A DNA stretch of 12,034 bases from an uncultured Angelakisella sp. (lineage in GTDB: Bacteria > Bacillota > Clostridia > Oscillospirales > Ruminococcaceae). A program made the translations under genes and the position numbers. The stretch is from assembly GCA_937914895.1 (NCBI GenBank), contig CALGIL010000023.1, positions 1 to 12,034 of the forward strand, given 5' to 3'. The notes under the pieces are model-generated. The model searched no databases, had not been told where the DNA came from, and worked only from the letters and a program-made list of their open reading frames with translations. This document shows positions 18-9,384 of the stretch, piece after piece. Every line of letters starts with the position of its first letter. Within the stretch, counting starts at the first letter, position 1.

Positions 18-800
18 GTGATCCGAACGGTTTTTATCGATGTGGACGGCACCCTGACCAGCCCCCGGACGGGGCGGCTGGTGCCCAGCGCGGCACAGGC
101 CATCCGCCTTGCCAGAAGGGCGGGGGTAAAGGTCTTTGCGGCCACGGGGCGGCATACTAAAATTCCGGCGGAGGGAAAGGTGCTGGAGGGCGTCGGCCTG
201 GACGGGTACCTGGCCTTAAACGGCCAGCTGTGCTACCTTGCCGACGGCACCGTTCTGCGGGAGGTGCCCATGGATGCGGAGGACTGCCGGCGGCTCATGG
301 ATCTTTCCCGGGAAATGGGCTTTTCCTGCGCCGTGGTGGAACGGGGCCGGATATACCTGGACACTTTTCATGAGCAGGTGCGCGCCTATCACGAAAGGAT
401 GGGCATTACCCCCCCGGAGGTGCTGGGCTTTGCACGCACCGACCCAAAGCGGGTGCTGATGATGATGGCGTACCTGACCGAGGCGGAGGAGGCGCAGGTG
501 GCGCCCCGGCTGAAAAACAGCGTTTTGGTGCGCCTGAATGAACTGGGCTGCGACGTCATCCCCCGGGACGGCGGCAAGGCCGCCGGCATGCTGGCGGTGC
601 TGGGGGCCCTGGGGGAGAGCCCCGCCCGGGCCATGGCCCTGGGGGATGGGGAAAACGACAAGACCATGCTGAAGGCCGCGGGGGTGGGCGTGGCCATGGC
701 CCACAGCAGCGCGGCCGTCCGGGCCTGCGCCGACGATATTGCCCCGCCGGTGGAGGAGGATGGCATACTCCGTGTGTTTCAAAAGTATCATTTAATCTAA
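18..800 (+). CDS. Cof-type HAD-IIB family phosphatase
   Basis: Predicted cytosolic phosphatase of about 260 residues, the usual size for the Cof/HAD-IIB group, which dephosphorylates sugar phosphates and similar small metabolites using Mg2+. Motif I is DVDGT at residues 8-12, where D8 would be the nucleophile and D10 the acid/base. Motif II is ATGR at about 42-45. A lysine in GGKAAG near residue 187 fits motif III, and the C-terminal GDGEND fits motif IV. The stretch between motifs II and III would be the C2 cap. The GTG at 18 is taken as start because family members commonly begin about seven residues before DxDGT. The upstream DNA is adapter, so a short N-terminal extension cannot be excluded. 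It lies 43 bp before cutC on the same strand and probably shares its transcript. The substrate cannot be told from sequence. Confidence 0.9.
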   Translation: MIRTVFIDVDGTLTSPRTGRLVPSAAQAIRLARRAGVKVFAATGRHTKIPAEGKVLEGVGLDGYLALNGQLCYLADGTVLREVPMDAEDCRRLMDLSREMGFSCAVVERGRIYLDTFHEQVRAYHERMGITPPEVLGFARTDPKRVLMMMAYLTEAEEAQVAPRLKNSVLVRLNELGCDVIPRDGGKAAGMLAVLGALGESPARAMALGDGENDKTMLKAAGVGVAMAHSSAAVRACADDIAPPVEEDGILRVFQKYHLI

Positions 801-843: not shown

Positions 844-1602
844 ATGAAGGAACCGGTTTTGCTGGAAATCTGCTGCGGCTCGGCCCAGGACGCCATAGAC
901 GCCTTTGGCGCCGGCGCACACCGGGTGGAGCTCAACTGCGCCCTGGCCCTGGGGGGCCTCAGCCCCTCGGCGGGGACGCTGAAAAAGGCCCTGGAGGGGG
1001 TGGAAATCCCCGTCATCTGTATGGTCCGGCCCAGGCCGGGCGGGTTTTGCTACGCCCCGGGGGAGTTCGACTCCATGGTGTATGACGCCGCCAATTTTGT
1101 GTCCATGGGGGCCGCCGGCGTCGCCTTTGGATGCCTGACGCCGGAGGGGCGCATCGACGTCCCCCGCTGCCGCCGAATGGTGGAGGCCGTCGGGGAGGGG
1201 GAGGCGGTGTTCCACCGCGCCTTTGACGCCCTGACCCAGCCCCTGGAGGAGGCCCTGGACATTCTTGCGGACCTGGGGGTCCGGCGGGTGCTCACCAGCG
1301 GGCAGCGCCCCACCGCACTGGAGGGCGCGGAGGTCATCCGGCGGTGCCGGGAATACGCCGCGGGCAGGCTGGAGCTTCTGCCCGGGGGAGGGGTCAGGCC
1401 CCACAACGCCCGGGAGATTCTGGAAAAGACGGGCTGCCGCCAGCTGCACGGCACCTTCCACAAGGACGCCCGGGACCGGTCGGCCTCCCAAAACCCCCAT
1501 ATGGACCCCGGCGCCGCCGCCCCGCCGCCCCCCGGGGACAATGTCCGGGTCATTGACAAGGCGGGCCTGCGGGCCTTTGAAGAGGCCCTGGGGCTGCTTT
1601 AA
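844..1602 (+). CDS. cutC: CutC-family (copper homeostasis-like) protein
   Basis: Predicted cytosolic TIM-barrel protein of the CutC family, 252 residues, about the normal length. Visible family hallmarks are LEICCGS at the N-terminus, the GAHRVELNCALALGGLSPS segment, MVRPRPGGFCY, FGCLTPEGRID, FHRAFDAL and RVLTSGQ in order, followed by GGGVRPHNA and LHGTFH near the C-terminus. CutC was named for copper tolerance in Escherichia coli, but its biochemical role in bacteria is disputed, so the name is by homology only. The start ATG at 844 has a GGAGGGAG ribosome binding site just upstream. The last 40 residues are proline/alanine-rich and look loosely conserved. It follows the HAD gene closely. 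No clear terminator separates it from the promoter at 1654. Confidence 0.9.
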   Translation: MKEPVLLEICCGSAQDAIDAFGAGAHRVELNCALALGGLSPSAGTLKKALEGVEIPVICMVRPRPGGFCYAPGEFDSMVYDAANFVSMGAAGVAFGCLTPEGRIDVPRCRRMVEAVGEGEAVFHRAFDALTQPLEEALDILADLGVRRVLTSGQRPTALEGAEVIRRCREYAAGRLELLPGGGVRPHNAREILEKTGCRQLHGTFHKDARDRSASQNPHMDPGAAAPPPPGDNVRVIDKAGLRAFEEALGLL

Positions 1603-1653: not shown

Positions 1654-1681
1654 TTGACATTTTATGAATTTAGTATATACT
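1654..1681 (+). promoter_or_regulatory. Sigma-70-type promoter of the SIS/PTS operon
   Basis: A perfect -35 TTGACA (1654-1659) and a -10 TATACT (1676-1681) are separated by 16 bp in an AT-rich patch within otherwise GC-rich DNA. The SIS gene starts about 75 bp downstream. This would drive the SIS gene and, by co-orientation, the PTS genes beyond it. Confidence 0.8.
1672..1681. promoter_or_regulatory. Operator palindrome overlapping the -10 box
   Basis: AGTATATACT is a perfect 10-bp palindrome that fully covers the -10 element. Its 8-bp core GTATATAC recurs in the promoter region of the GntR regulator gene (9374-9381). HutC-type GntR proteins are known to favour GT-N-TA-N-AC-like palindromes. 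Binding here would block RNA polymerase, so repression is the expected mode. This is inferred, not shown. Confidence 0.6.
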
Positions 1682-1756: not shown

Positions 1757-2461
1757 ATGAATAACGAAGTGTTTGAAAAAGCCGCGGAGCTTATTGGGAA
1801 GGAACAGGAGACCCAGGGGGAGAATATTATGGCCGCGGCCGTCTGCATTGCCGACACCTTTACGGCGGGCGGGATTCTGCAGGCCTTCGGCTCGGGGCAT
1901 TCCCAGTCCGGCGCGCTGGAGCTTTGCCACAGGGCCGGCGGCTTTGTCCCCACCAAGGCCATCCGGGAGCCCGCCAACGGCAATTACGAGGCGGTGCCCG
2001 GCGTGGGCGAGATCTTTATGAAAAAGGTGGATATTCAAAAAAACGACGTGGTGTTTATCATCTCCAACTCCGGGCGCAACCCCCTGCCCCTGGAGATTGC
2101 CTGCCAGGCTCGGGAGCGGGGCGCCAAGGTGGTGGCCGTCACCTCCGTCTCGGCCAGCTCCAAGCTGAGCTCCAAGCACAAATCGGGCAAGCGGCTGTTT
2201 GAGATTGCCGACGTGGTTATTGACAACCAGGTCCCCGATGGGGATGCCAGCATTACCCTGCCGGGGCTGGACACCGCCATCTGCGGGATGTCCAGCATCA
2301 CCACCGCCGTGGCCCTGCAGGCCGTGGTGCTGGAGGCGGCCAAAATTCTGCTGGCCCGGGGAGAGACCCCGCCCTTCTTTAAATCCCAGAACATTGACGG
2401 CGGCGCCGAATACAACGAGGCGCTTTTGGAAAAGTACTTCGACCGGCTGTACCACATTTGA
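1757..2461 (+). CDS. SIS-domain phosphosugar-binding protein (UPF0309-like)
   Basis: Predicted cytosolic sugar-phosphate isomerase or binding protein of 234 residues with one SIS domain. The phosphosugar-binding signatures are FGSGHS at 44-49 and ISNSGRN at 102-108. The following GAKVVAVTS and the SSKHKSGKRLFEIADVVIDN segment match the UPF0309 group rather than GlmS, GutQ or MurQ types. The ATG at 1757 is chosen because GGGAGGAG lies nine bases upstream. A longer in-frame ATG at 1664 sits inside the promoter spacer and cannot be transcribed from it. First gene after the operator-controlled promoter, and 183 bp before the PTS IIC gene, so it probably acts on the sugar phosphate made by that PTS. 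The reaction (isomerisation, deamination or cleavage) cannot be assigned. Confidence 0.88.
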   Translation: MNNEVFEKAAELIGKEQETQGENIMAAAVCIADTFTAGGILQAFGSGHSQSGALELCHRAGGFVPTKAIREPANGNYEAVPGVGEIFMKKVDIQKNDVVFIISNSGRNPLPLEIACQARERGAKVVAVTSVSASSKLSSKHKSGKRLFEIADVVIDNQVPDGDASITLPGLDTAICGMSSITTAVALQAVVLEAAKILLARGETPPFFKSQNIDGGAEYNEALLEKYFDRLYHI

Positions 2462-2543
2462 CAGCGGTTTGAGGATCCTGTGTGCCAAGGGGGTGTGACG
2501 TAAAAATCTGTCTGGCCAAAGCGGCTGAAAGGAGGGATTTAAG

Positions 2544-2645
2544 CTGCCTGAGATCACCATGGGCCTGGCCCGTCCGGCTGCGGGGATTATGTGTTTGCGG
2601 CGGAATTCAACATTTGCTGAAAAATGGTTGAAAGGGAGGAAATGA
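2544..2645 (+). pseudogene. Short CTG-initiated frame, relic or leader peptide
   Basis: A strong ribosome binding site, GAAAGGAGGG (2527-2536), is followed seven bases later by CTG rather than ATG. An open frame of 33 codons runs from there and begins L-PEITMGLARP. Its TGA at 2643-2645 overlaps the start region of the IIC gene. I do not recognise the peptide. The well-placed ribosome binding site without a normal start suggests either the remnant of a deleted or start-mutated gene, or a short upstream frame coupled to IIC translation. There is also an internal in-frame ATG at 2559, but it is 22 bases from the ribosome binding site. Confidence 0.35.
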
Positions 2646-3385
2646 TGAGTAATTTATTACTGGCCTTTTTACTGGCTGCCTTTACGGGTCTGATGATCCT
2701 TTTCTGCTCCCTGGCGATCAGCGGACTGTACAATCCGCTGGTGTTTGCCTTTGTGACGGGCCTGATTGTCGGTGACGTCGGCCTGGGCCTGCAGGTGGGC
2801 GCGGCGTGCGCGCTGATGGCGCTGGGCTTTTATACATACGGCGGCGCCACCATTCCCGACTACAACGTGGGCGCCATGTTTGGCGTTCTCATTGCCTCGC
2901 AAAGCGGCGACGTCACCCAGGGCATCGTCATCGGCTCGGTTATCGCCCTGCTCATGTCGTGGTTTGACATCCTGGGCCGCACCGCGACGACGGTGTTCCA
3001 GCACGGGGGCGACCGCGCCCTTGCCAGAAGAAGCATCCAAAGCTTTGAAAGATGGCACCTGGCGGGTACCCTCAGCTGGTTCCTGGGACGGTTTATCCCG
3101 GTGTTCATCGGCATCATGTTCATCGACCGGTATGAAGTTATTGCCACCTTTGTCCAAAATTACGCATGGGTGAAAAACGGTCTTGCGGTCATCGGCAAGG
3201 CGCTTCCGGCCGTGGGATTTGCGCTGCTGCTGTCCTATATGGATATTAAGGGCTACTGGCCCTTCCTGCTGCTGGGCTACGCGCTGTTTGCGTTTATGGG
3301 CGTTCCGACCCTGGGCCTTGCCCTTATCGGGATTGCCGCGGGCGCGCTGTTTACGGGCAAAGCAAGGAAAAAGGAGGAGGTATAG
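2645..3385 (+). CDS. PTS mannose/fructose/sorbose family IIC component
   Basis: Predicted integral membrane permease subunit of a mannose-family phosphotransferase system, 246 residues. It forms the sugar channel together with IID. Several hydrophobic helices are visible, starting with a segment at about residues 3-30. The ALMALGFYTYGGATIPDYN region and a loop with FQHGGDRALARR are typical of the family, and the C-terminus KARKKEEV is charged and probably cytosolic. Two adjacent ATG codons occur at 2642 and 2645. The second is preferred because GGGAGG at 2634-2639 is then five bases away; the first leaves two. The IID start follows after two bases, so translation of the two is probably coupled. 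Family-level assignment is firm; the transported sugar is unknown. Confidence 0.92.
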   Translation: MSNLLLAFLLAAFTGLMILFCSLAISGLYNPLVFAFVTGLIVGDVGLGLQVGAACALMALGFYTYGGATIPDYNVGAMFGVLIASQSGDVTQGIVIGSVIALLMSWFDILGRTATTVFQHGGDRALARRSIQSFERWHLAGTLSWFLGRFIPVFIGIMFIDRYEVIATFVQNYAWVKNGLAVIGKALPAVGFALLLSYMDIKGYWPFLLLGYALFAFMGVPTLGLALIGIAAGALFTGKARKKEEV

Positions 3386-3387
3386 CA

Positions 3388-4218
3388 ATGGCGAGAACAG
3401 AGAAAAAGCTGTCAAAACAGGCGATTAAAAAAGCTGCCTGGCGCCATAACTGGACCCTGCAGTGGTGCTGGAACTACGAGCGTATGCAGGCCTCCGGCTT
3501 TGCCTACTCCATGGTCCCTGTCCTCAAAGAGCTTTATACCACCGACGAGGAAGTGTGCGAAAACCTGGAGCGCCATATGCAGTTTTACAACAGCCACCCC
3601 GGCGCGTCGTCCGTCATCTGCGGCTCGGTAGTAGCCCTGGAGGAGGACTATCAGACCGAGATGGCCGACAGCATCAAGGTCGCCCTGATGGGCCCCATGG
3701 CCGGCATCGGCGACACGGTGCAGGGCGTTCTGGTGCAGCCCCTCAGCTACATTATTGCGGCGTCCCTGGCCAACGAGGGCAGCTTTTTGGCCCTGCCCAT
3801 GGTCATCATCCCGCTGCTGCTTCTGTTTTTGGCCCGGTGGCCGCTGTTTACCTGGGGCTATAACCGCTCGGTTAAAATCATCGAGGACCTCAGCGGCAAC
3901 AGCGACTTTAACACCCTGCGCGAGGCGGCCCAGGTCCTCGGCCTTACCGTGGTGGGCGGCTTTGTCCCCAGCATGATCGGCCTTAAGTTCCTGTCGGCCT
4001 ACTCCAAGGAAATGACGGACGAAGCAACGGGCGAAGCCGTTGTGCAGACCGTATCGCTGCAAAAGACCCTGGACGGAATTCTGCCCTACCTGCTGCCCAT
4101 CTGCCTTGTGGGCTTTTGCTACTGGCTGCTTAAAAACAAAAAGATGTCGCCCGTGGCGGTCATTGGAATTGTAGCGGCAATCACCTTTGTTTTGGGCGCC
4201 CTGGGCATTTTGGGGTAA
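3388..4218 (+). CDS. PTS mannose/fructose/sorbose family IID component
   Basis: Predicted membrane partner of IIC, 276 residues, normal length. The N-terminal cytosolic part holds the family signature: WNYERMQASGFAYSMVPVL, then KELYTTDEE and QFYNSHPGASSVICG. This is followed by MAGIGDTVQGVLVQPL and several hydrophobic stretches. The last helix runs almost to the C-terminus, ending LGALGILG. AAGGAGGAGG lies just before the ATG, and the gene starts two bases after the IIC stop. Its 3' end (3987-4218) is the parent copy of a tandem duplication that fills the gap before the IIA gene. All four PTS parts are encoded nearby; the general enzymes EI and HPr must lie elsewhere. Confidence 0.93.
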   Translation: MARTEKKLSKQAIKKAAWRHNWTLQWCWNYERMQASGFAYSMVPVLKELYTTDEEVCENLERHMQFYNSHPGASSVICGSVVALEEDYQTEMADSIKVALMGPMAGIGDTVQGVLVQPLSYIIAASLANEGSFLALPMVIIPLLLLFLARWPLFTWGYNRSVKIIEDLSGNSDFNTLREAAQVLGLTVVGGFVPSMIGLKFLSAYSKEMTDEATGEAVVQTVSLQKTLDGILPYLLPICLVGFCYWLLKNKKMSPVAVIGIVAAITFVLGALGILG

Positions 4219-4224
4219 CAGGCA

Positions 4225-4437
4225 GTTCCTGACGCTGTACCGTTCAGCCATGGAATGGCGGGCAAGCGACGGGCAGAGCAGCCGCGCAGGCCGTCCCACG
4301 GCAACAGATTCCGGGTGGGAGCCTGCCCGGCTGGCGGCCCGTCTGCCCTGTGGGCTTTTGCCACTGGCTGCGTAAAAACAAAAGGAGTTTGCCCGCCGCG
4401 GCCATGGGGCGCGCTGGGCAGATTGGGGTAACAGGCA
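4225..4437 (+). repeat. Decayed tandem copy of the IID gene 3' end
   Basis: This stretch repeats 3987-4224, the last ~230 bp of the IID gene plus its stop and spacer, head to tail. Both units begin with GTTCCTG and end with TTGGGGTAACAGGCA. In between, shared blocks appear in the same order: ACGGGC, TGTGGGCTTTTGC, ACTGGCTGC and TAAAAACAAAA. The first unit is 238 bp and still codes for IID; the second is 213 bp, has lost the reading frame and has diverged. The second unit ends on the A of the IIA start codon. The ancestral junction was therefore probably IID stop, five bases, IIA start. The 218-bp gap between the two genes is thus explained and holds no other gene that I can support. Confidence 0.85.
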
Positions 4438-4850
4438 TGATTGGTGTTGTACTTATCAGCCACGGCGGCATGGCCGAAGGCATGGTGTCCTCGGGGGAGA
4501 TGCTGTATCCAAACTTCAGCCAGGTGGAGTGTCTTCCCCTTTGGCCGGCGGATAATCCTGATGAATTTCAGGAGAAGCTGGAGGGCAAAATAAAATCGGT
4601 GGATACCGGCGGCGGCGTGATCATTTTAACCGACCTGATGGGGGGGACCCCCTGTAATCGCGCGCTTTATTCGCTTTCGTCCAACGTGCGGATGCTTGCG
4701 GGCATGAATCTGCCCATGCTGCTGGCCCTGCTGGCGGCAAGGGAACAGACCGAGGATCTTGATGAAATAGCGACGCTGGTTTTGGAGGAAGCGCATGCCG
4801 GCACCCTCGATGTAAACGAGGCGCTTAGAAAGAGGGGCATCATACCATGA
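4437..4850 (+). CDS. PTS mannose/fructose/sorbose family IIA component
   Basis: Predicted cytosolic phosphocarrier of 137 residues, the usual size for a stand-alone IIA of this family. It takes phosphate from HPr and passes it to IIB. The N-terminus MIGVVLISHGGMAEGM carries the expected phosphorylation histidine, H9, and LTDLMGGTPCN at about 62-72 is the conserved D-GG-P-N loop. The start at 4437 is chosen by homology. An in-frame ATG at 4404 would add 11 residues from the decayed IID copy. No strong ribosome binding site precedes 4437. An AAAGGAG at 4381-4387 arose within the duplicated sequence but is too far for a classical start. The stop overlaps the IIB start by four bases (ATGA), so IIA and IIB are translationally coupled. 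Confidence 0.92.
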   Translation: MIGVVLISHGGMAEGMVSSGEMLYPNFSQVECLPLWPADNPDEFQEKLEGKIKSVDTGGGVIILTDLMGGTPCNRALYSLSSNVRMLAGMNLPMLLALLAAREQTEDLDEIATLVLEEAHAGTLDVNEALRKRGIIP

Positions 4851-5332
4851 TCAAACATCTCAGAATCGACAACCGGCTTATCCACGGCCAGGTTGCGGTC
4901 GTCTGGCAAAAGTACATCGACGCCAAGGCCATTATTGTCTGCAATGACAAGGTGGCCGCCGACCCCATCCAAAAGATGGCGCTGCCGCTGGCGGCCAGGG
5001 GCTCCAAGGTGCTGGTCCTTTCCATCGCCGACATGCTGGCGTACGAAAAGGAGCACCCCGACGAAAGCCTGTTTGTCATCGCCAAGTTCCCCCAGGACGC
5101 GCTGGACATTCTGCGCTCCGGCGTCAAGGTGGAAAGCGTCAACGTGGGCAACGCGGCGCCCATCCAGGGCACCAAGTATGTCATGCTGACAAAGTCCACG
5201 GCGGCCACAAAGGAAGACGCCGAAATTTACCGGGAAATTGCCGGTTTAAACGGCGGCCGTCTGACAACCCAGATTCTTCCCAGTATGGAAAAACTGGATG
5301 TCCTGTCCCTTCTGGATAAGGCGGGCCTGTGA
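4847..5332 (+). CDS. PTS mannose/fructose/sorbose family IIB component
   Basis: Predicted cytosolic phosphotransfer protein of 161 residues, normal for the family. It hands phosphate from IIA to the incoming sugar. RIDNRLIHGQV near the N-terminus is the signature, with H13 the phosphorylated residue. Further family features are the DKVAADPIQKMAL segment and VNVGNAAPIQGTKYV. The ATG overlaps the IIA stop by four bases. A 161-bp gap rich in inverted repeats follows before the next gene, so this may be the end of the translationally coupled PTS block. Confidence 0.93.
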   Translation: MIKHLRIDNRLIHGQVAVVWQKYIDAKAIIVCNDKVAADPIQKMALPLAARGSKVLVLSIADMLAYEKEHPDESLFVIAKFPQDALDILRSGVKVESVNVGNAAPIQGTKYVMLTKSTAATKEDAEIYREIAGLNGGRLTTQILPSMEKLDVLSLLDKAGL

Positions 5333-5345
5333 CGGTTTATACGCA

Positions 5346-5386
5346 CCCCGCGGGGGACGGCGGCAGCGCCGCCCCCTGTGGGGCGG
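5346..5386. repeat. GC-rich overlapping inverted repeats after IIB
   Basis: Three nested or adjacent inverted repeats are visible: CCCCGCGGGG (5346-5355), GGCGGC-AGC-GCCGCC (5359-5373) and CCGCCCC-CTGT-GGGGCGG (5369-5386). The second and third share bases, so they are mutually exclusive in RNA. No T-tract follows, so this is not a classic terminator. It could slow polymerase or stabilise the 3' end of the PTS message. Confidence 0.5.
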
Positions 5387-5423
5387 TGTGTCCGGACGTC
5401 CGCCAAGGACAATTTGATGCAGA

Positions 5424-5457
5424 CAAGTGGCCGCTTTTGTGTGAAAGTGGCCACTTG
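5424..5457. repeat. Perfect 9-bp stem hairpin, no T-tract
   Basis: CAAGTGGCC (5424-5432) pairs perfectly with GGCCACTTG (5449-5457), and inside it CTTT (5434-5437) can pair with AAAG (5444-5447). The following sequence is GCCTGAAAAAACAAAA, which is A-rich rather than T-rich. It may be an mRNA processing or stability element, or a protein-binding site, upstream of the membrane protein gene. Confidence 0.5.
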
Positions 5458-5493
5458 GCCTGAAAAAACAAAACCAAAGACAGGGGGGCGCCT

Positions 5494-6117
5494 ATGCAGC
5501 TGAAGGTGGCAAAGCTGTTAAACCAGATTTTGATTGTGATCACCGTTGTAATCCTGCTTCTGGCGGGGGGATATTTTGTGGTGCTTAAATGGTTTGCGCC
5601 ATACCAGAAGGTGTACCTTGTGGTGTTTGCCGTGGTCAGCATCGCGCTGTATCTGGTCTTCCGCTGGCTGGAAAGCCGCTGGGATAAGCGGGTGGTCACC
5701 CGGATGGCCAAGGAGGGGCACATTGCCCTGGCGCAGATTCAAAGCGGCAGCCGCGTCATGGCCATGCGCGACTCCACCTTTACCAATTACTGGCTGTACG
5801 AATTTAAGGCCCGGCTGACCACGCCGGACCAAACAAGCTTTGACAAGACCTTTTACGAAAAAATGCGGGCCGATACCGAGGACATCCCGGGCGGCTGGGT
5901 CTATGTCACCTATGACGAAAATAAGCCCGATCAAATTTTTATGGTGCCCAATCTGCTCATCAGCCACCTGCCCCAGCTGATGCCGGTCATCGCCCAGTTT
6001 GAGGCGGACAAAAGGCTGGACATTAAGTATCTGGATGTGTACTATCATAAGGGGATGGTCCTCCGGACCTTTCAGGAGACGGTGGAAGCCAACAGGACAG
6101 CGAGGGAATCAGAATGA
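5494..6117 (+). CDS. Unrecognised two-helix membrane protein
   Basis: I do not recognise this 207-residue protein. Two hydrophobic helices are visible at about residues 10-31 (LNQILIVITVVILLLAGGYF) and 39-57 (VYLVVFAVVSIALYLVF). A mainly polar domain of about 150 residues follows, opening with ESRWDKRVV, whose positive charges suggest it faces the cytosol. The polar part has a mixed alpha/beta look, with segments such as GGWVYVTYDENKP. No catalytic motif stands out. AGGGGGG precedes the ATG at 5494. The stop overlaps the Gfo/Idh/MocA start by four bases (ATGA), so the two products are made together and may work together. Its place in the PTS locus suggests an accessory role in uptake or membrane anchoring of an enzyme, but that is inference. 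Confidence 0.8.
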   Translation: MQLKVAKLLNQILIVITVVILLLAGGYFVVLKWFAPYQKVYLVVFAVVSIALYLVFRWLESRWDKRVVTRMAKEGHIALAQIQSGSRVMAMRDSTFTNYWLYEFKARLTTPDQTSFDKTFYEKMRADTEDIPGGWVYVTYDENKPDQIFMVPNLLISHLPQLMPVIAQFEADKRLDIKYLDVYYHKGMVLRTFQETVEANRTARESE

Positions 6118-7094
6118 AAATTGGAACCGTGGGAACAGGATTTATTGTGGATACCTTTATGGAGGCCGCGGCCCAAATTCCGGGCATTCAGGTGGAGGCG
6201 GTCTATTCCCGCACGGCCGAAAAGGCAAAGGCCCTGGGGGATAAATATGACATCCCCAGGCGCTATACCGACCGGGACGCCTTTTTGTCCGACGGCGGGC
6301 TGGATTTTATTTATGTGGCGTCGCCCAACTCCCTGCACTACGGCTGGTGCCGGGACGCCCTGGCGGCCGGGCGCAATGTCATCTGCGAAAAGCCCTTTGT
6401 CACCACCTCCGCCCAGCTGAAGGAGCTGGTGCAGACGGCCCGGCAAAAGGGGCTGTTCCTCTTTGAGGCCATTACGGTGCCCCATCTGCCCAACTTTCGG
6501 CTGCTGCGGTCCAGGCTGGGGGAGATTGGGGACATCAAGCTGTGCCAGATGAACTTTTCCCAGTATTCCAGCCGGTACGCCGCCTTTAAGCGGGGGGAGA
6601 ACCCCAATGTGTTCAGCCCCGCCTTTTCCGGCGGCGCGCTGATGGACATCAACTACTATAACCTCTATTTTGCCTACGGGCTGTTTGGACGGCCCCGGGC
6701 CATCCGCTACTTCCCCAACATGGAGGAGGGCATCGACACCTCGGGGGTGCTGGTGCTGCAGTACGACGGCTTTGTCTGCTCGGCCGTGGGCTGCAAGGAT
6801 TCCAAAAGCCGCAACCTCAGCCAGATACAGGGCGACGGCGGCTGGATTGTCGTGCCCGAGGAGACCTCCCGCTGCGTGGAGGTACAGGTCTTTGCCGGCG
6901 GAAAGGAAGCAAGCTATAACCAGCAGCCGGTGCCCAATGCGCTGTATTACGAGCTGACGGATTTTTGCGCCATGTTTGAGGCGGGGGACCTTGCGGGCTG
7001 CCACAGGCTGCTGGAGGACAGCCTGGCCGTTACCGCCCTGGTGGAGGAGGCAAGGCTGGCGGCGGGAGTGGCCTTTGCCGACGACAAGGCGTGA
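6114..7094 (+). CDS. Gfo/Idh/MocA family NAD(P)-dependent oxidoreductase
   Basis: Predicted cytosolic dehydrogenase of 326 residues, normal length. The Rossmann domain shows GTGFI at 7-11, SPNSLH at 70-75 and EKP at 92-94, where K93 is the expected catalytic lysine. The C-terminal domain has GGALMDINYYN at about 173-183. In many family members a histidine stands four residues after this aspartate (D178); here the position is Y182, so the catalytic set is not the textbook one. Such variants occur in Firmicutes members of the family. Family enzymes oxidise or reduce sugars, inositols and their phosphates. The gene overlaps the membrane protein gene by four bases and precedes the ceramidase-like gene by 62 bp. 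Role in sugar catabolism inferred; substrate unknown. Confidence 0.92.
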   Translation: MKIGTVGTGFIVDTFMEAAAQIPGIQVEAVYSRTAEKAKALGDKYDIPRRYTDRDAFLSDGGLDFIYVASPNSLHYGWCRDALAAGRNVICEKPFVTTSAQLKELVQTARQKGLFLFEAITVPHLPNFRLLRSRLGEIGDIKLCQMNFSQYSSRYAAFKRGENPNVFSPAFSGGALMDINYYNLYFAYGLFGRPRAIRYFPNMEEGIDTSGVLVLQYDGFVCSAVGCKDSKSRNLSQIQGDGGWIVVPEETSRCVEVQVFAGGKEASYNQQPVPNALYYELTDFCAMFEAGDLAGCHRLLEDSLAVTALVEEARLAAGVAFADDKA

Positions 7095-7098
7095 CAAA

Positions 7099-7119
7099 CG
7101 GGGCGCCCCAGGCGCCCTG
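7099..7119 (+). promoter_or_regulatory. Hairpin between oxidoreductase and amidase genes
   Basis: GGGCGCC (7101-7107) and GGCGCCC (7111-7117) form a 7-bp GC stem with a CCA loop. Two more outer pairs are possible, one of them a wobble. TTTTT follows only after ten bases (7128-7132), so this is a weak terminator at best, perhaps giving partial readthrough into the downstream gene. Confidence 0.4.
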
Positions 7120-7156
7120 GCCGCAGATTTTTAAAGCGGGATAGGGAGGAATAACG

Positions 7157-8392
7157 ATGGTCAAGGCAGCGTCGGCCCAGCGGGACATTACCCCCCGCGA
7201 GGCCTGTTATATGGGTGGGTACGGCATGCGCACCCAAAAATCCCAGGGGGTTTTGTCGCCCCTTATGTGCAGTGTTTTGGCCCTGGAGGTGGATGGCACG
7301 GCCCTTGTCCTTTGCAGTCTGGACCTTTTGATGGCCCCCGGGGAGCTGGTGGCGGACCTGAAGGAGGAGATTGGCAGAAAGCATGGGGTGGACCCGCTGT
7401 ACACCACCATTGCGGCCATCCACACCCACGCGGCGCCCGAGATGCGCAGCGCCCGCCTGCCCGCGGTCACCGACGACGGCTTTTGGGAGCGGTACGCCCC
7501 CCAGCTGCGGGAGGCCGTTTTGTCGGCGGTGGACGAATGCTTTGCAAAGGGCCTGCAGACGGCGGCGGCCTTTTACAGCAAGACGGCGGTAAAGGGCTTT
7601 TACGGCAACCGCAACGGCATGGAAAAGCCCGAGGATAAGGACGTGGTCATGGTCAAATTCACGGACAGCCGGGGTGCGGTGCTGGGGGGGATGGTCAACA
7701 TCGCCTGCCACCCCACGGTGCTGGGCGCGGATAACCTGAGGATCAGCGGCGACCTGCTGGGCTATATTGCCGGGGCGGCGGCAAAGCAGTGGGGCGTCCT
7801 GCCCGTCATGATGCAGGGCGCGGCGGGGGATATGAGCAACCGCCACTACCGCCAGGGCCACGACGCGGCCGAGCTGGAGCGCACCGGCGGCGGCATTGTG
7901 GCGCAGCTGTTCCAAAACCAGGACTTTATGCCCCTTGCCCTGGCGGCACCCAAGGCACGGCGGTATGTCTACCAAACCGAATACGACGTGGACAGGGATG
8001 CCCTGGAGGCGCTGCGGCAGAAGACCCTGAAGGAGGCCGAGGCCGCCGAAGGCTATGACCAGCGCAAAATTCTGATGTCCGGAGTCATCGCCCTGGATAT
8101 GAAGCTGAAAGACCCCCACATCACCGTGGACTTTCAGGCTGCTGTTCTGCGGCTGGGGGATTTGGAGATCATCAAGCACCCGGGGGAGATGTTTGCGCGG
8201 TTCGGGATGAAAATCAAGGCCGCCAGCCCCGCAAAATTGCCGCTGATTTGGGGCTATGCCGACGATTACAGCGGGTATATGCCCAACGCCGAGGAGTACG
8301 GCGTCACCTACGAAAGCATGATGTCACCCCTGCCCAAGGGCGCCGCGGAGGAGATTACCGAAAACCTCTGCCGCCTGGTGGCGGACCTCTGA
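7157..8392 (+). CDS. Neutral/alkaline ceramidase-like zinc amidohydrolase
   Basis: Predicted 411-residue enzyme related to the N-terminal catalytic domain of neutral/alkaline non-lysosomal ceramidase, which hydrolyses N-acyl amide bonds with one zinc ion. Candidate zinc ligands are visible in family order: HTH at 89-91 within AAIHTHAAPE, H185 in IACHPT, E344 in HPGEMF, and Y371/Y374 in ADDYSGYMPNAEEY. MQGAAGDMSN at about 219-228 resembles the GDVSPN loop of true ceramidases. There is no signal peptide and the C-terminal immunoglobulin-like domain of secreted ceramidases is absent, so it should be cytosolic. AGGGAGGA lies six bases before the ATG at 7157. As last gene of the PTS locus it probably cuts an amide or similar bond in the imported phosphorylated compound. 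Real ceramide is an unlikely substrate inside the cell. Confidence 0.85.
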   Translation: MVKAASAQRDITPREACYMGGYGMRTQKSQGVLSPLMCSVLALEVDGTALVLCSLDLLMAPGELVADLKEEIGRKHGVDPLYTTIAAIHTHAAPEMRSARLPAVTDDGFWERYAPQLREAVLSAVDECFAKGLQTAAAFYSKTAVKGFYGNRNGMEKPEDKDVVMVKFTDSRGAVLGGMVNIACHPTVLGADNLRISGDLLGYIAGAAAKQWGVLPVMMQGAAGDMSNRHYRQGHDAAELERTGGGIVAQLFQNQDFMPLALAAPKARRYVYQTEYDVDRDALEALRQKTLKEAEAAEGYDQRKILMSGVIALDMKLKDPHITVDFQAAVLRLGDLEIIKHPGEMFARFGMKIKAASPAKLPLIWGYADDYSGYMPNAEEYGVTYESMMSPLPKGAAEEITENLCRLVADL

Positions 8393-8418
8393 CAGGGGCA
8401 GCCGTTCACGGCTTGGAA

Positions 8419-8446
8419 GCCGGGATGCTCCGCCCGGCACATTTTT
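8419..8446 (+). terminator. Rho-independent terminator of the PTS locus
   Basis: GCCGGG (8419-8424) pairs with CCCGGC (8433-8438) around an 8-base loop and is followed by ACATTTTT. It lies about 27 bp after the amidase stop codon. The stem is short but all G/C. Confidence 0.55.
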
Positions 8447-8454
8447 GAACGAAC

Positions 8455-8488
8455 AAGCAGCCTTCTCCCCCGGGGGAGAAGGCTGCTT
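8455..8488. terminator. 34-bp perfect palindrome between convergent genes
   Basis: Bases 8455-8471 are the exact reverse complement of 8472-8488, with arms reading AAGCAGCCTTCTCCCCC. This gives a 17-bp perfect inverted repeat with no spacer. It lies between the convergent amidase and gntR genes. The flanking T content is modest on both strands (CTTTAAG to the right, TTGTTCG to the left on the minus strand), so it most likely acts as a bidirectional terminator or transcript end stabiliser. Confidence 0.75.
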
Positions 8489-8539
8489 TAAGCTGCCGAA
8501 AAAGCGGCTGCGTGAGATCATGCGCCGGGGGGGCTTCTC

Positions 8540-9256
8540 CTACCGGCCCAGATGGGAGGTGTAGGAGTAGGAATAGCGGCTGCCGATGTAGTAGGTGCTG
8601 GTGTATTCCACCGGGGCGCCGCCGGAACTGTAGGTGATGTGGGAATTGACCAGCAGCGCCTCGCCGCCGATGCCCAAAATCCGCCGCTGCTCCGGGGTGG
8701 GGTTTTGGGCGGTCATCTCCCCTTCGGAATAGCTGCGGCCCACGCCCAGGGCGTCCAGGTAGTCGTACAGGGAGGTTTCCAGCCGGCTGACGTCCATGGA
8801 GGGCAGGACGCTGCAGGGGATGTAGGTGCAGCTGAGGGCGATGGGCAGTCCGTCCCCCGTGCGCAGCCGGGTGAAGTAGTGGAGCAGGTCGCCGTCGGAC
8901 AGCCCCATAAGCTCCCGGACCCGTGGGTCCTCCGACGCCCAGATGATCCGGTACTCCAGCAGCCGGGAGCCGGGCTTTAGGCCCAGGGCCTGCATGTCCT
9001 GGGTAAAGCTGCGGCCGGAGCCGATGGATTTGGCCGCGTGGGGATGGCGCACAAAGGTGCCCTTGCCCGGGATGCGGTAGACATAGCCCCCCGCCACCAG
9101 GCCCGAAATGGCCTTGTTGATGGTCATCCGGCTGACCCCGTACTCCTGGCAAAGCTGCTCCTCGGTGCTGATCTGCTGCCCCGGCGCCAGGCGCCTGGAC
9201 AAAATACGGCTGCGGATGTCCTCCTCGATTTGCAGGTATTTTGCCTTGTTCTTCAC
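8540..9256 (-). CDS. GntR/HutC-family transcriptional regulator (UTRA domain)
   Basis: Predicted 238-residue DNA-binding regulator. The N-terminal winged helix (about 1-70) contains IEEDIRSRILSRRLAPGQQI, then EEQLCQEYGVSRMTINKA and the wing GYVYRIPGKGTFV. The rest is a UTRA effector-binding domain, including LHYFTRLRTGDGLPIA and the C-terminal strand pattern SGGAPVEYTSTYY, so it belongs to the HutC subfamily, whose effectors are often sugar phosphates. The GTG at 9256 is chosen because AAGGAG lies eight bases upstream and the domain begins right there. The in-frame ATG 71 codons upstream would run back through the gene's own promoter. It converges on the PTS operon, and its promoter shares a palindrome with the PTS promoter, so it probably represses both until a PTS-derived sugar phosphate binds. 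Confidence 0.93.
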   Translation of the reverse strand: MKNKAKYLQIEEDIRSRILSRRLAPGQQISTEEQLCQEYGVSRMTINKAISGLVAGGYVYRIPGKGTFVRHPHAAKSIGSGRSFTQDMQALGLKPGSRLLEYRIIWASEDPRVRELMGLSDGDLLHYFTRLRTGDGLPIALSCTYIPCSVLPSMDVSRLETSLYDYLDALGVGRSYSEGEMTAQNPTPEQRRILGIGGEALLVNSHITYSSGGAPVEYTSTYYIGSRYSYSYTSHLGR

Positions 9257-9337
9257 GGCAAAGTCTCCTTTACTGTCGGCTGCGCGCTGCTGAATTTTGG
9301 ATGCAAAGGCGGTGGGCCCCCGCGGTTTGCCACGCCT

Positions 9338-9370: not shown

Positions 9371-9384
9371 TTTGTATATACAAA
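9371..9384. promoter_or_regulatory. Operator palindrome TTTGTATATACAAA
   Basis: A perfect 14-bp palindrome with the core GTATATAC, identical to the core at the SIS/PTS promoter (1673-1680). The form closely resembles known sites of HutC-type GntR regulators such as TreR. Its position just upstream of the -35 box suggests autoregulation, though not simple occlusion of the -10. Confidence 0.65.

Follow-up and report, generated by a model that had tools for sequence, protein, structure and literature searches.

Neutral ceramidases (PF04734) are represented by solved structures of the enzymes of Pseudomonas aeruginosa (2zws, 2zxc) and human (4wgk). A protein with this fold is encoded at the end of a sugar operon in an uncultured Angelakisella sp., on a 12,034-base contig (G000:C23; genome of 2.13 Mb) which was analysed in its whole length and is referred to as the window. 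As stated in the original prediction, the region 1757-8392 codes for a UPF0309-type SIS protein, all four parts (IIA, IIB, IIC and IID) of a mannose-family phosphotransferase system (PTS), a protein with two transmembrane (TM) segments, a Gfo/Idh/MocA oxidoreductase (Gfo) and the ceramidase-fold protein, named CER hereafter. The operon is interpreted as serving the catabolism of an N-acylated amino sugar, and CER would cut the amide of the phosphorylated sugar or of a product of it; a probability of about 0.6 is given to this reading. The best-supported general statement is that CER would act in the cytosol as the zinc amidase of a module for amino-sugar phosphates, as judged from its fold, its metal site and its context.

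Several described systems share parts of this arrangement. The SIS protein belongs to the same subfamily as NagS (SCO4393, 9eol), the N-acetylglucosamine 6-phosphate (GlcNAc-6P) dehydratase of Streptomyces, from which it differs by the replacement of S91 by a glycine, the absence of the preceding 11-residue loop, and its location in a PTS operon. Import to the 6-phosphate by a PTS is common to the catabolism of N-acetylmuramic acid (MurNAc) and GlcNAc of the E. coli type (MurP, MurQ and NagA), as outlined in PMC13041923; MurQ and NagA are also part of the cluster as it occurs in Chloroflexota (see below), whereas CER, the UPF0309 SIS, Gfo, CutC and HAD are additional and the PTS is of the mannose family. 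Such a PTS is also a feature of the operons for N-acetylgalactosamine and galactosamine (Aga), and AgaF was the best NCBIfam match of the window IIA. However, all Aga equivalogs scored under their cut-offs (AgaF 74.9 bits for a cut-off of 130, AgaW 80.8 for 300, AgaE 126.3 for 500, GalN IID 176.5 for 400). A cytosolic amidase in the uptake and catabolism of an amino sugar, together with a GntR-family regulator, is known from the fucosyl-GlcNAc-Asn pathway of L. casei (alf-2). There, according to PMC6960285, the glycosylasparaginase AsnA2 self-processes at its catalytic threonine, in contrast to CER, and the sugar is handled by an MFS permease and a ROK kinase with no PTS. A corresponding role of CER as GlcNAc-Asn amidase of N-glycans was considered and left without support. 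SrfJ, a 'ceramidase' of inositol clusters, was rejected as a precedent, as it resembles lysosomal glycosylceramidases, a different family (PMC9430895). No published sugar-linked ceramidase was recognised in the titles and abstract starts of the open-access literature matches listed, and no report of the combination of these known kinds, a PTS operon and a ceramidase fold, was seen among them.

CER aligned to the catalytic-domain fold of neutral ceramidase over 381-383 residues. In the fold search, neutral ceramidases were the only clear matches, the remaining rows being weak. Residues H89, H185, E344 and Y374 of CER align to those of the solved enzymes and are invariant in the CER alignment (A1); we take these two histidines, the glutamate and the tyrosine to be the zinc ligands. 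R152 corresponds to an arginine shared with the solved ceramidases. No hydrophobic stretch precedes the domain, hence there is no signal peptide or membrane anchor, and the protein counts 411 aa compared with the 646- and 688-aa chains of the solved enzymes. The prediction of a signal-less ceramidase-family protein which keeps its zinc ligands was therefore borne out, the metal site being intact and the protein cytosolic by sequence. CER further differs from neutral ceramidases in that GDVSPN, described in PMC5874051 as their amidase motif, is absent. GDMSNRxxR stands at this place in the window protein, and GDxSxRxxR in CER and its relatives.

The gene company of CER recurs in another phylum. 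Scanning of genome contigs with the CER alignment revealed 184 stretches encoding a relative, of which the best 80 were kept; a scan with the single sequence had found none. Five Chloroflexota loci (L032, L033, L034 and L037 of Anaerolineaceae, L036 of a Chloroflexi bacterium) display the order HAD-CutC-SIS-IIC-IID-IIB-TM-Gfo-NagA-CER-SIS-HAD-MurQ-ZnADH, preceded by a further NagA gene in divergent orientation; in two other loci, L035 and L038, the cluster is interrupted by contig ends. The order HAD-CutC-SIS-IIC-IID-IIB-TM-Gfo-CER is shared with the window, minus IIA and plus nagA- and murQ-family genes. Between the window and L032, sequence identity amounts to 80% for SIS, 74% for IID, 73% for IIC, 67% for IIB, 56% for CER, 55% for the TM protein and 54% for Gfo; the first and second genes of the block, HAD and CutC, are 45 and 50% identical to the L032 genes in matching place. 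L032 was the only Chloroflexota locus put to NCBIfam, where its MurQ reached 373.7 bits (TIGR00274, cut-off 302) and its front NagA 286.4 bits (cut-off 225.65), the inner NagA remaining under at 214.6. No PTS IIA was found in the Chloroflexota loci. An EIIA-man domain occurs elsewhere in five of the six Chloroflexota genomes searched, and an enzyme I (EI) domain over cut-off in four of them. In the four Anaerolineaceae genomes searched, the sole MurQ over cut-off is the one of the CER cluster.

A second line of evidence was obtained from 398 evenly drawn Bacillota genomes, searched with the CER profile at E<=1e-40. Eight matched, one of them being the window genome, and the loci of all seven others were fetched. 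A UPF0309 SIS gene was located near CER in each of them (one per locus by NCBIfam, PRK02947 with 285-313 bits for a cut-off of 135), and the zinc ligands were kept in all seven proteins. Mannose PTS genes were present in six loci (L152-L157); the remaining one, L158, reads BadF-CER-M20 peptidase-SIS and is the only one with a BadF kinase. Gfo was detected in five and NagA in three of the seven. The clusters of L152 and L153 include a GntR/UTRA regulator, and that of L152 an aldolase of the DeoC/LacD family, to which proteins of L153 and L154 are 73-76% identical. NanE, the N-acetylmannosamine 6-phosphate epimerase, scored over its cut-off (189) in the CER loci L156 (291 bits) and L086 (263 bits). 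The expectation that amidase, SIS and PTS genes co-occur in other genomes thus held in six of the seven drawn loci and, in nearly full order, in the five Chloroflexota loci. Because both the Chloroflexota order and the even draw repeat the same gene company, the operon is not a chance assembly.

CER was also placed in a quick tree with several long branches, from which CER matches shorter than 300 aa or below 120 bits had been left out; neighbours were counted within 6 kb, at 90 bits or more, with profiles built here. The window protein lies inside a clade of 50 rows (L054 and L055 being identical) with a value of 99 in the Shimodaira-Hasegawa-like approximate likelihood ratio test (SH-aLRT). 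At least two mannose-family PTS genes accompany 41 of the 50 clade rows, and none of the 39 rows that belong neither to the PTS group nor to the archaeal, actinobacterial or Coprothermobacter groups; a PTS gene directly adjoins CER in 27 of the clade rows. As a rough estimate, about one gene in ten of the window genome would by chance lie within 6 kb of an EIIA-man match. This genome is rich in mannose-family PTS, with 12 EIIA-man matches in its 2.13 Mb. The other neighbours counted in the clade were NagA (7 rows), MurQ (8 rows, seven of them from one lineage) and HAD (25 rows). A hydrophobic stretch ahead of the CER domain was seen in none of the 66 rows of the linked groups, compared with 12 of the 39 others, a group which includes members with possible signal peptides.

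In actinobacteria and archaea, a BadF-type kinase, SIS and CER are found in common loci; NagK was matched with 141 bits by the kinase of L076 and with 105.7 bits by that of L158, under the cut-off of 370. Across phyla, CER is thus recurrently linked to genes for a PTS or a sugar kinase, a UPF0309 SIS, NagA and Gfo. The NagA, NanE, MurQ and BadF neighbours point to catabolism of N-acetylhexosamine 6-phosphates. In the window genome itself, a further locus (L136, G000:C15, 553-5775) encodes RpiR, PTS IIA-IIB-IIC-IID, NanE and a second UPF0309-type SIS, identified with a profile built here; by this pairing of SIS with NanE, N-acetylhexosamine phosphates are indicated again.

Seven archaeal CER loci (L076, L078, L079, L083, L085, L090 and L091) hold AP_endonuc_2 TIM-barrel genes, to which an M14 AspA-like peptidase, Gfo, SIS, NagA, a GlmS/GlmD-like SIS and a BadF kinase are variably added; they possibly represent an archaeal amino-sugar cluster. 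The archaeal loci L074, L087 and L104 are without this gene set at comparable scores. Bacteroidota loci L095, L097 and L099 have paired, more distant CERs with no PTS or kinase neighbour within 6 kb.

Within the GDxSxRxxR loop, R229 and R232 occur together in all 50 PTS-clade rows, in 8/8 archaeal and Zymogenaceae rows, in 6/7 actinobacterial rows and in the single row of Coprothermobacter. The remaining 39 rows have R229 in nine cases and R232 in eight. Six of the seven loci of the even draw have the pair, and the seventh has Arg-Lys. A PTS or BadF kinase gene lies within 6 kb in 51 of the 70 rows with the pair and in none of the 35 without. These arginines occupy the position of the SPN residues of ceramidases, and it is plausible from the sequence that they form a phosphate site and may hold the phosphate of the substrate.

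A number of observations weigh against the reading of the operon as an amino-sugar-phosphate module. A nearby PTS is lacking for nine of the 50 clade rows; in six of these (L035, L038, L044, L057, L071 and L073) the contig ends within 6 kb, which is not the case for L050, L066 and L069. In the window, CER does not directly adjoin any PTS gene, and in the clade SIS occurs within 6 kb in only nine rows and Gfo in seven. More distant CERs in relatives of the window genome were accompanied by a mannose PTS in 0 of 13 fetched regions (L118-L130). The arginine pair changes only four times on the CER tree and is for this reason a lineage mark; the independent-pairs test offered two usable pairs and no power, so that the pair failed as independent evidence. 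Finally, NagA genes exist in related clusters and elsewhere in the window genome, so that there is no evident need for a further deacetylase. CER was also without match in nine genomes of the same genus, and is sporadic here. The latter result, together with the high identities across phyla and with a single further SIS match (E<=1e-45) among 391 genomes of the class, suggests that the operon spread by horizontal transfer.

The SIS protein was compared with NagS. Eight of the nine tested side chains of 9eol are kept (H53, S54, R64, E94, S119, S121, D179 and N228), and H53, R64, E94 and D179 are conserved in 25 out of 25 aligned SIS rows. In PMC12680351, the NagS mutants H53A, R64A, E94A and D179A are inactive and S91A is 40-fold weaker. 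There, NagS of Streptomyces produces 6P-chromogen I, which is deacetylated by NagA. Four NagS homologues were assayed, and the three distant ones (25.7-35.7% identical) showed negligible or no activity on GlcNAc-6P; the active members are Streptomycetaceae dehydratases, and the reaction is reported in that text to be limited to this family. Since the catalytic residues are kept and distant homologues are weak on GlcNAc-6P, NagS-type chemistry on another substrate is plausible for the window SIS. The term UPF0309 gave no hit of its own among the open-access literature matches listed.

From these elements a task can be proposed for each protein. As suggested by its class and by the neighbouring genes, the mannose-family PTS would import the sugar as a 6-phosphate. 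CER would cleave, as cytosolic zinc hydrolase, the amide on the phosphosugar or its product. The SIS protein may remove the C2 proton of the same phosphosugar, resulting either in an elimination at C3 as in NagS or in an isomerisation. A redox step would be performed by Gfo and a dephosphorylation by HAD.

Three specific routes compete within this frame, namely plain deacetylation, a dehydrative route and a MurNAc-peptide amidase. CER could be an alternative N-acetylhexosamine-6-phosphate deacetylase, analogous to NagA, with SIS as the matching deaminase or isomerase, although this is considered somewhat unlikely. It agrees with two kinds of loci in which NagA was not found within 6 kb, the minimal PTS-CER loci of Erysipelotrichales and the actinobacterial BadF-CER-SIS loci (NagA in 7/50 clade rows and 0/7 actinobacterial rows). 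However, CER has a NagA homologue as direct neighbour or at a distance of a few kb in Chloroflexota, Thermococcus, Zymogenaceae, Coprothermobacter and the three even-draw Bacillota loci; in the window genome, no NagA amidohydrolase-family gene was found among the ten window proteins scanned with Pfam and NCBIfam, and two genes over cut-off lie on other contigs. Because NagA genes are present too, plain deacetylation of the NagA type is doubtful as the whole story, and it is therefore argued that CER does something that NagA does not. The original proposal that an N-acylated sugar is imported, phosphorylated and deacylated in the cytosol is thus sustained by the co-occurrence, the intact cytosolic amidase and the amino-sugar neighbours, but loses ground in its simplest form, as a simple deacetylase would duplicate NagA.

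A dehydrative route is likewise unlikely. In it, SIS would eliminate the 3-OH of an N-acetylhexosamine 6-phosphate to give the 2,3-enamide (6P-chromogen I), which CER or the in-operon NagA would hydrolyse; via an imine, a 3-deoxy dicarbonyl sugar phosphate would arise, to be reduced or oxidised by Gfo and finished by an aldolase or phosphatase. The precedent of NagS and NagA in Streptomyces (PMC12680351), the four essential residues kept in every SIS row, and the DeoC/LacD-family aldolase of L152 with its close relatives in L153 and L154 speak for it. Against it stand the negligible or absent activity of the three distant NagS homologues on GlcNAc-6P in the same text, the missing S91 and loop of the window SIS, and a DeoC relative that was not found in the window. 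Rather unlikely is its more defined, Entner-Doudoroff-like form, with SIS as C3 lyase, CER deacylating the enamide with loss of ammonia, and Gfo with aldolase or HAD clearing the 3-deoxy dicarbonyl phosphate. If true, this form would turn the NagS-NagA side path of Streptomyces, linked to toxicity, into a growth pathway replacing glucosamine 6-phosphate deaminase. It is quite unlikely that CER acts as a cytosolic MurNAc-L-Ala amidase on the lactyl-peptide amide of a phosphorylated MurNAc peptide, ahead of MurQ and NagA. In Chloroflexota a true MurQ gene follows shortly downstream (L032), in Breznakia one is found close to CER, and M14 peptidase and binding-protein-dependent ATP-binding cassette (ABC) permease genes are near archaeal CERs; however, no peptidase appeared among the annotated neighbours sampled in PTS loci (a sample, not a full search), and the few MurQ genes of the clade stem almost all from one lineage. 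An intracellular lipid amidase whose gene came into sugar operons by chance is most improbable: CER has its fold and zinc site in common with neutral ceramidase, but the linkage recurs in a number of bacterial families as well as, with kinases, among archaea, and GDVSPN is altered in a signal-less and shorter chain. A kanosamine-type (NtdABC) reading of Gfo and HAD was dropped, the nearest solved Gfo enzymes bearing the family name only.

The features of the window are collected in the table below. The PTS is complete, with IIA, IIB, IIC and IID each over the Pfam cut-off, and an EI N-terminal domain is present in the same genome. Junctions are short between the TM protein and Gfo (overlap of 4 bases), IIC and IID (gap of 2 bases) and Gfo and CER (62 bases); longer gaps separate CutC from SIS (154), SIS from IIC (183), IID from IIA (218) and IIB from the TM protein (161). 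The 207-aa TM protein gave no Pfam or NCBIfam match. The nearest solved structures of Gfo were 2ho5 and 4iq0, followed by dimeric dihydrodiol dehydrogenase; for two other neighbour proteins, the PDB search returned no match at the limits set. The decayed IID duplicate (window 4022-4437) gives the IIA reading frame an N-terminal extension that is probably spurious. A partial tRNA (Rfam RF00005) lies at the contig end (11989-12034).

Features of the window, with positions, strand and supporting evidence
Feature	Position	Strand	Evidence or remark
HAD phosphatase, Cof-type	18..800	+	Pfam Hydrolase_3 124.9 bits; closest solved structure BT4131 sugar-phosphate phosphatase
CutC family protein	844..1602	+	Pfam CutC 184.9 bits
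Sigma-70-like promoter ahead of SIS gene	1654..1681	+	TTGACA-16-TATACT; 11/12 consensus positions; consensus match only
GTATATAC palindrome over the -10-like hexamer of the SIS promoter	1673..1680		candidate GntR operator
UPF0309-type SIS, relative of NagS and MurQ	1757..2461	+	PRK02947 256.5 bits (cut-off 135)
PTS IIC, mannose family	2645..3385	+	EII-Sor 172 bits
PTS IID	3388..4218	+	EIID-AGA 274.5 bits
Decayed duplicate of IID gene 3' end, in IID-IIA gap	4264..4437	+	145-nt repeat with 74% and 31-nt repeat with 90% identity
PTS IIA	4437..4850	+	EIIA-man 89.3 bits
PTS IIB	4847..5332	+	PTSIIB_sorb 124.9 bits; 4-base overlap with IIA end
207-aa protein with two N-terminal hydrophobic (TM) segments	5494..6117	+	hydropathy; 55% identical gene in L032
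Gfo/Idh/MocA oxidoreductase	6114..7094	+	GFO_IDH_MocA 88.8 bits
CER, cytosolic ceramidase-fold protein	7157..8392	+	
Strong hairpin between CER and convergent gntR	8455..8488		15-bp stem, end runs into TTTAA
GntR-type regulator, HutC-like effector region	8540..9259	-	GTG start inferred
Promoter-like site of gntR gene	9367-9338	-	
Second GTATATAC palindrome	9374..9381		just upstream of the gntR -35-like hexamer

The regulator gene and the operon are read towards each other, and the regulator matches HutC with 109.5 bits over residues 10-233, under the equivalog cut-off of 220. The region 8393-8500 folds at a z-score of -5.1, and the hairpin in it is possibly a terminator shared by the operon and gntR. 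The two copies of GTATATAC in the window compare with 0.03 expected, and two copies were obtained in none of 200 shuffles. The longer form TTNGTATATACNNNA has three sites genome-wide, the two of the window and one elsewhere, versus one for a backward-read control. The third site lies in L138 (G000:C385), between a divergent SIS-SIS gene (deglycase-like) and another mannose PTS (IIA-IIB-IIC-IID), where GTATATAC cores stand in the intergenic region, a further one being near the PTS promoter. This weakened GTATATAC as a unique regulon mark. From the positions of the sites, including the third locus, they would fit autoregulation plus control of the operon, although a related regulator may use them as well; the GntR regulator thus probably controls the operon and its own gene via the GTATATAC sites.

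The family PF04734 bears the name of a lipid enzyme, and a signal-less bacterial and archaeal branch of it travels with amino-sugar genes. If this branch acts on amino-sugar phosphates, the family name would be misleading for it and the zinc amidase fold would gain a substrate class. The role of UPF0309 proteins outside Streptomyces would then be directly testable in one operon. The company that CER keeps across phyla would indicate a so far undescribed step in the cytosolic breakdown of amino sugars.

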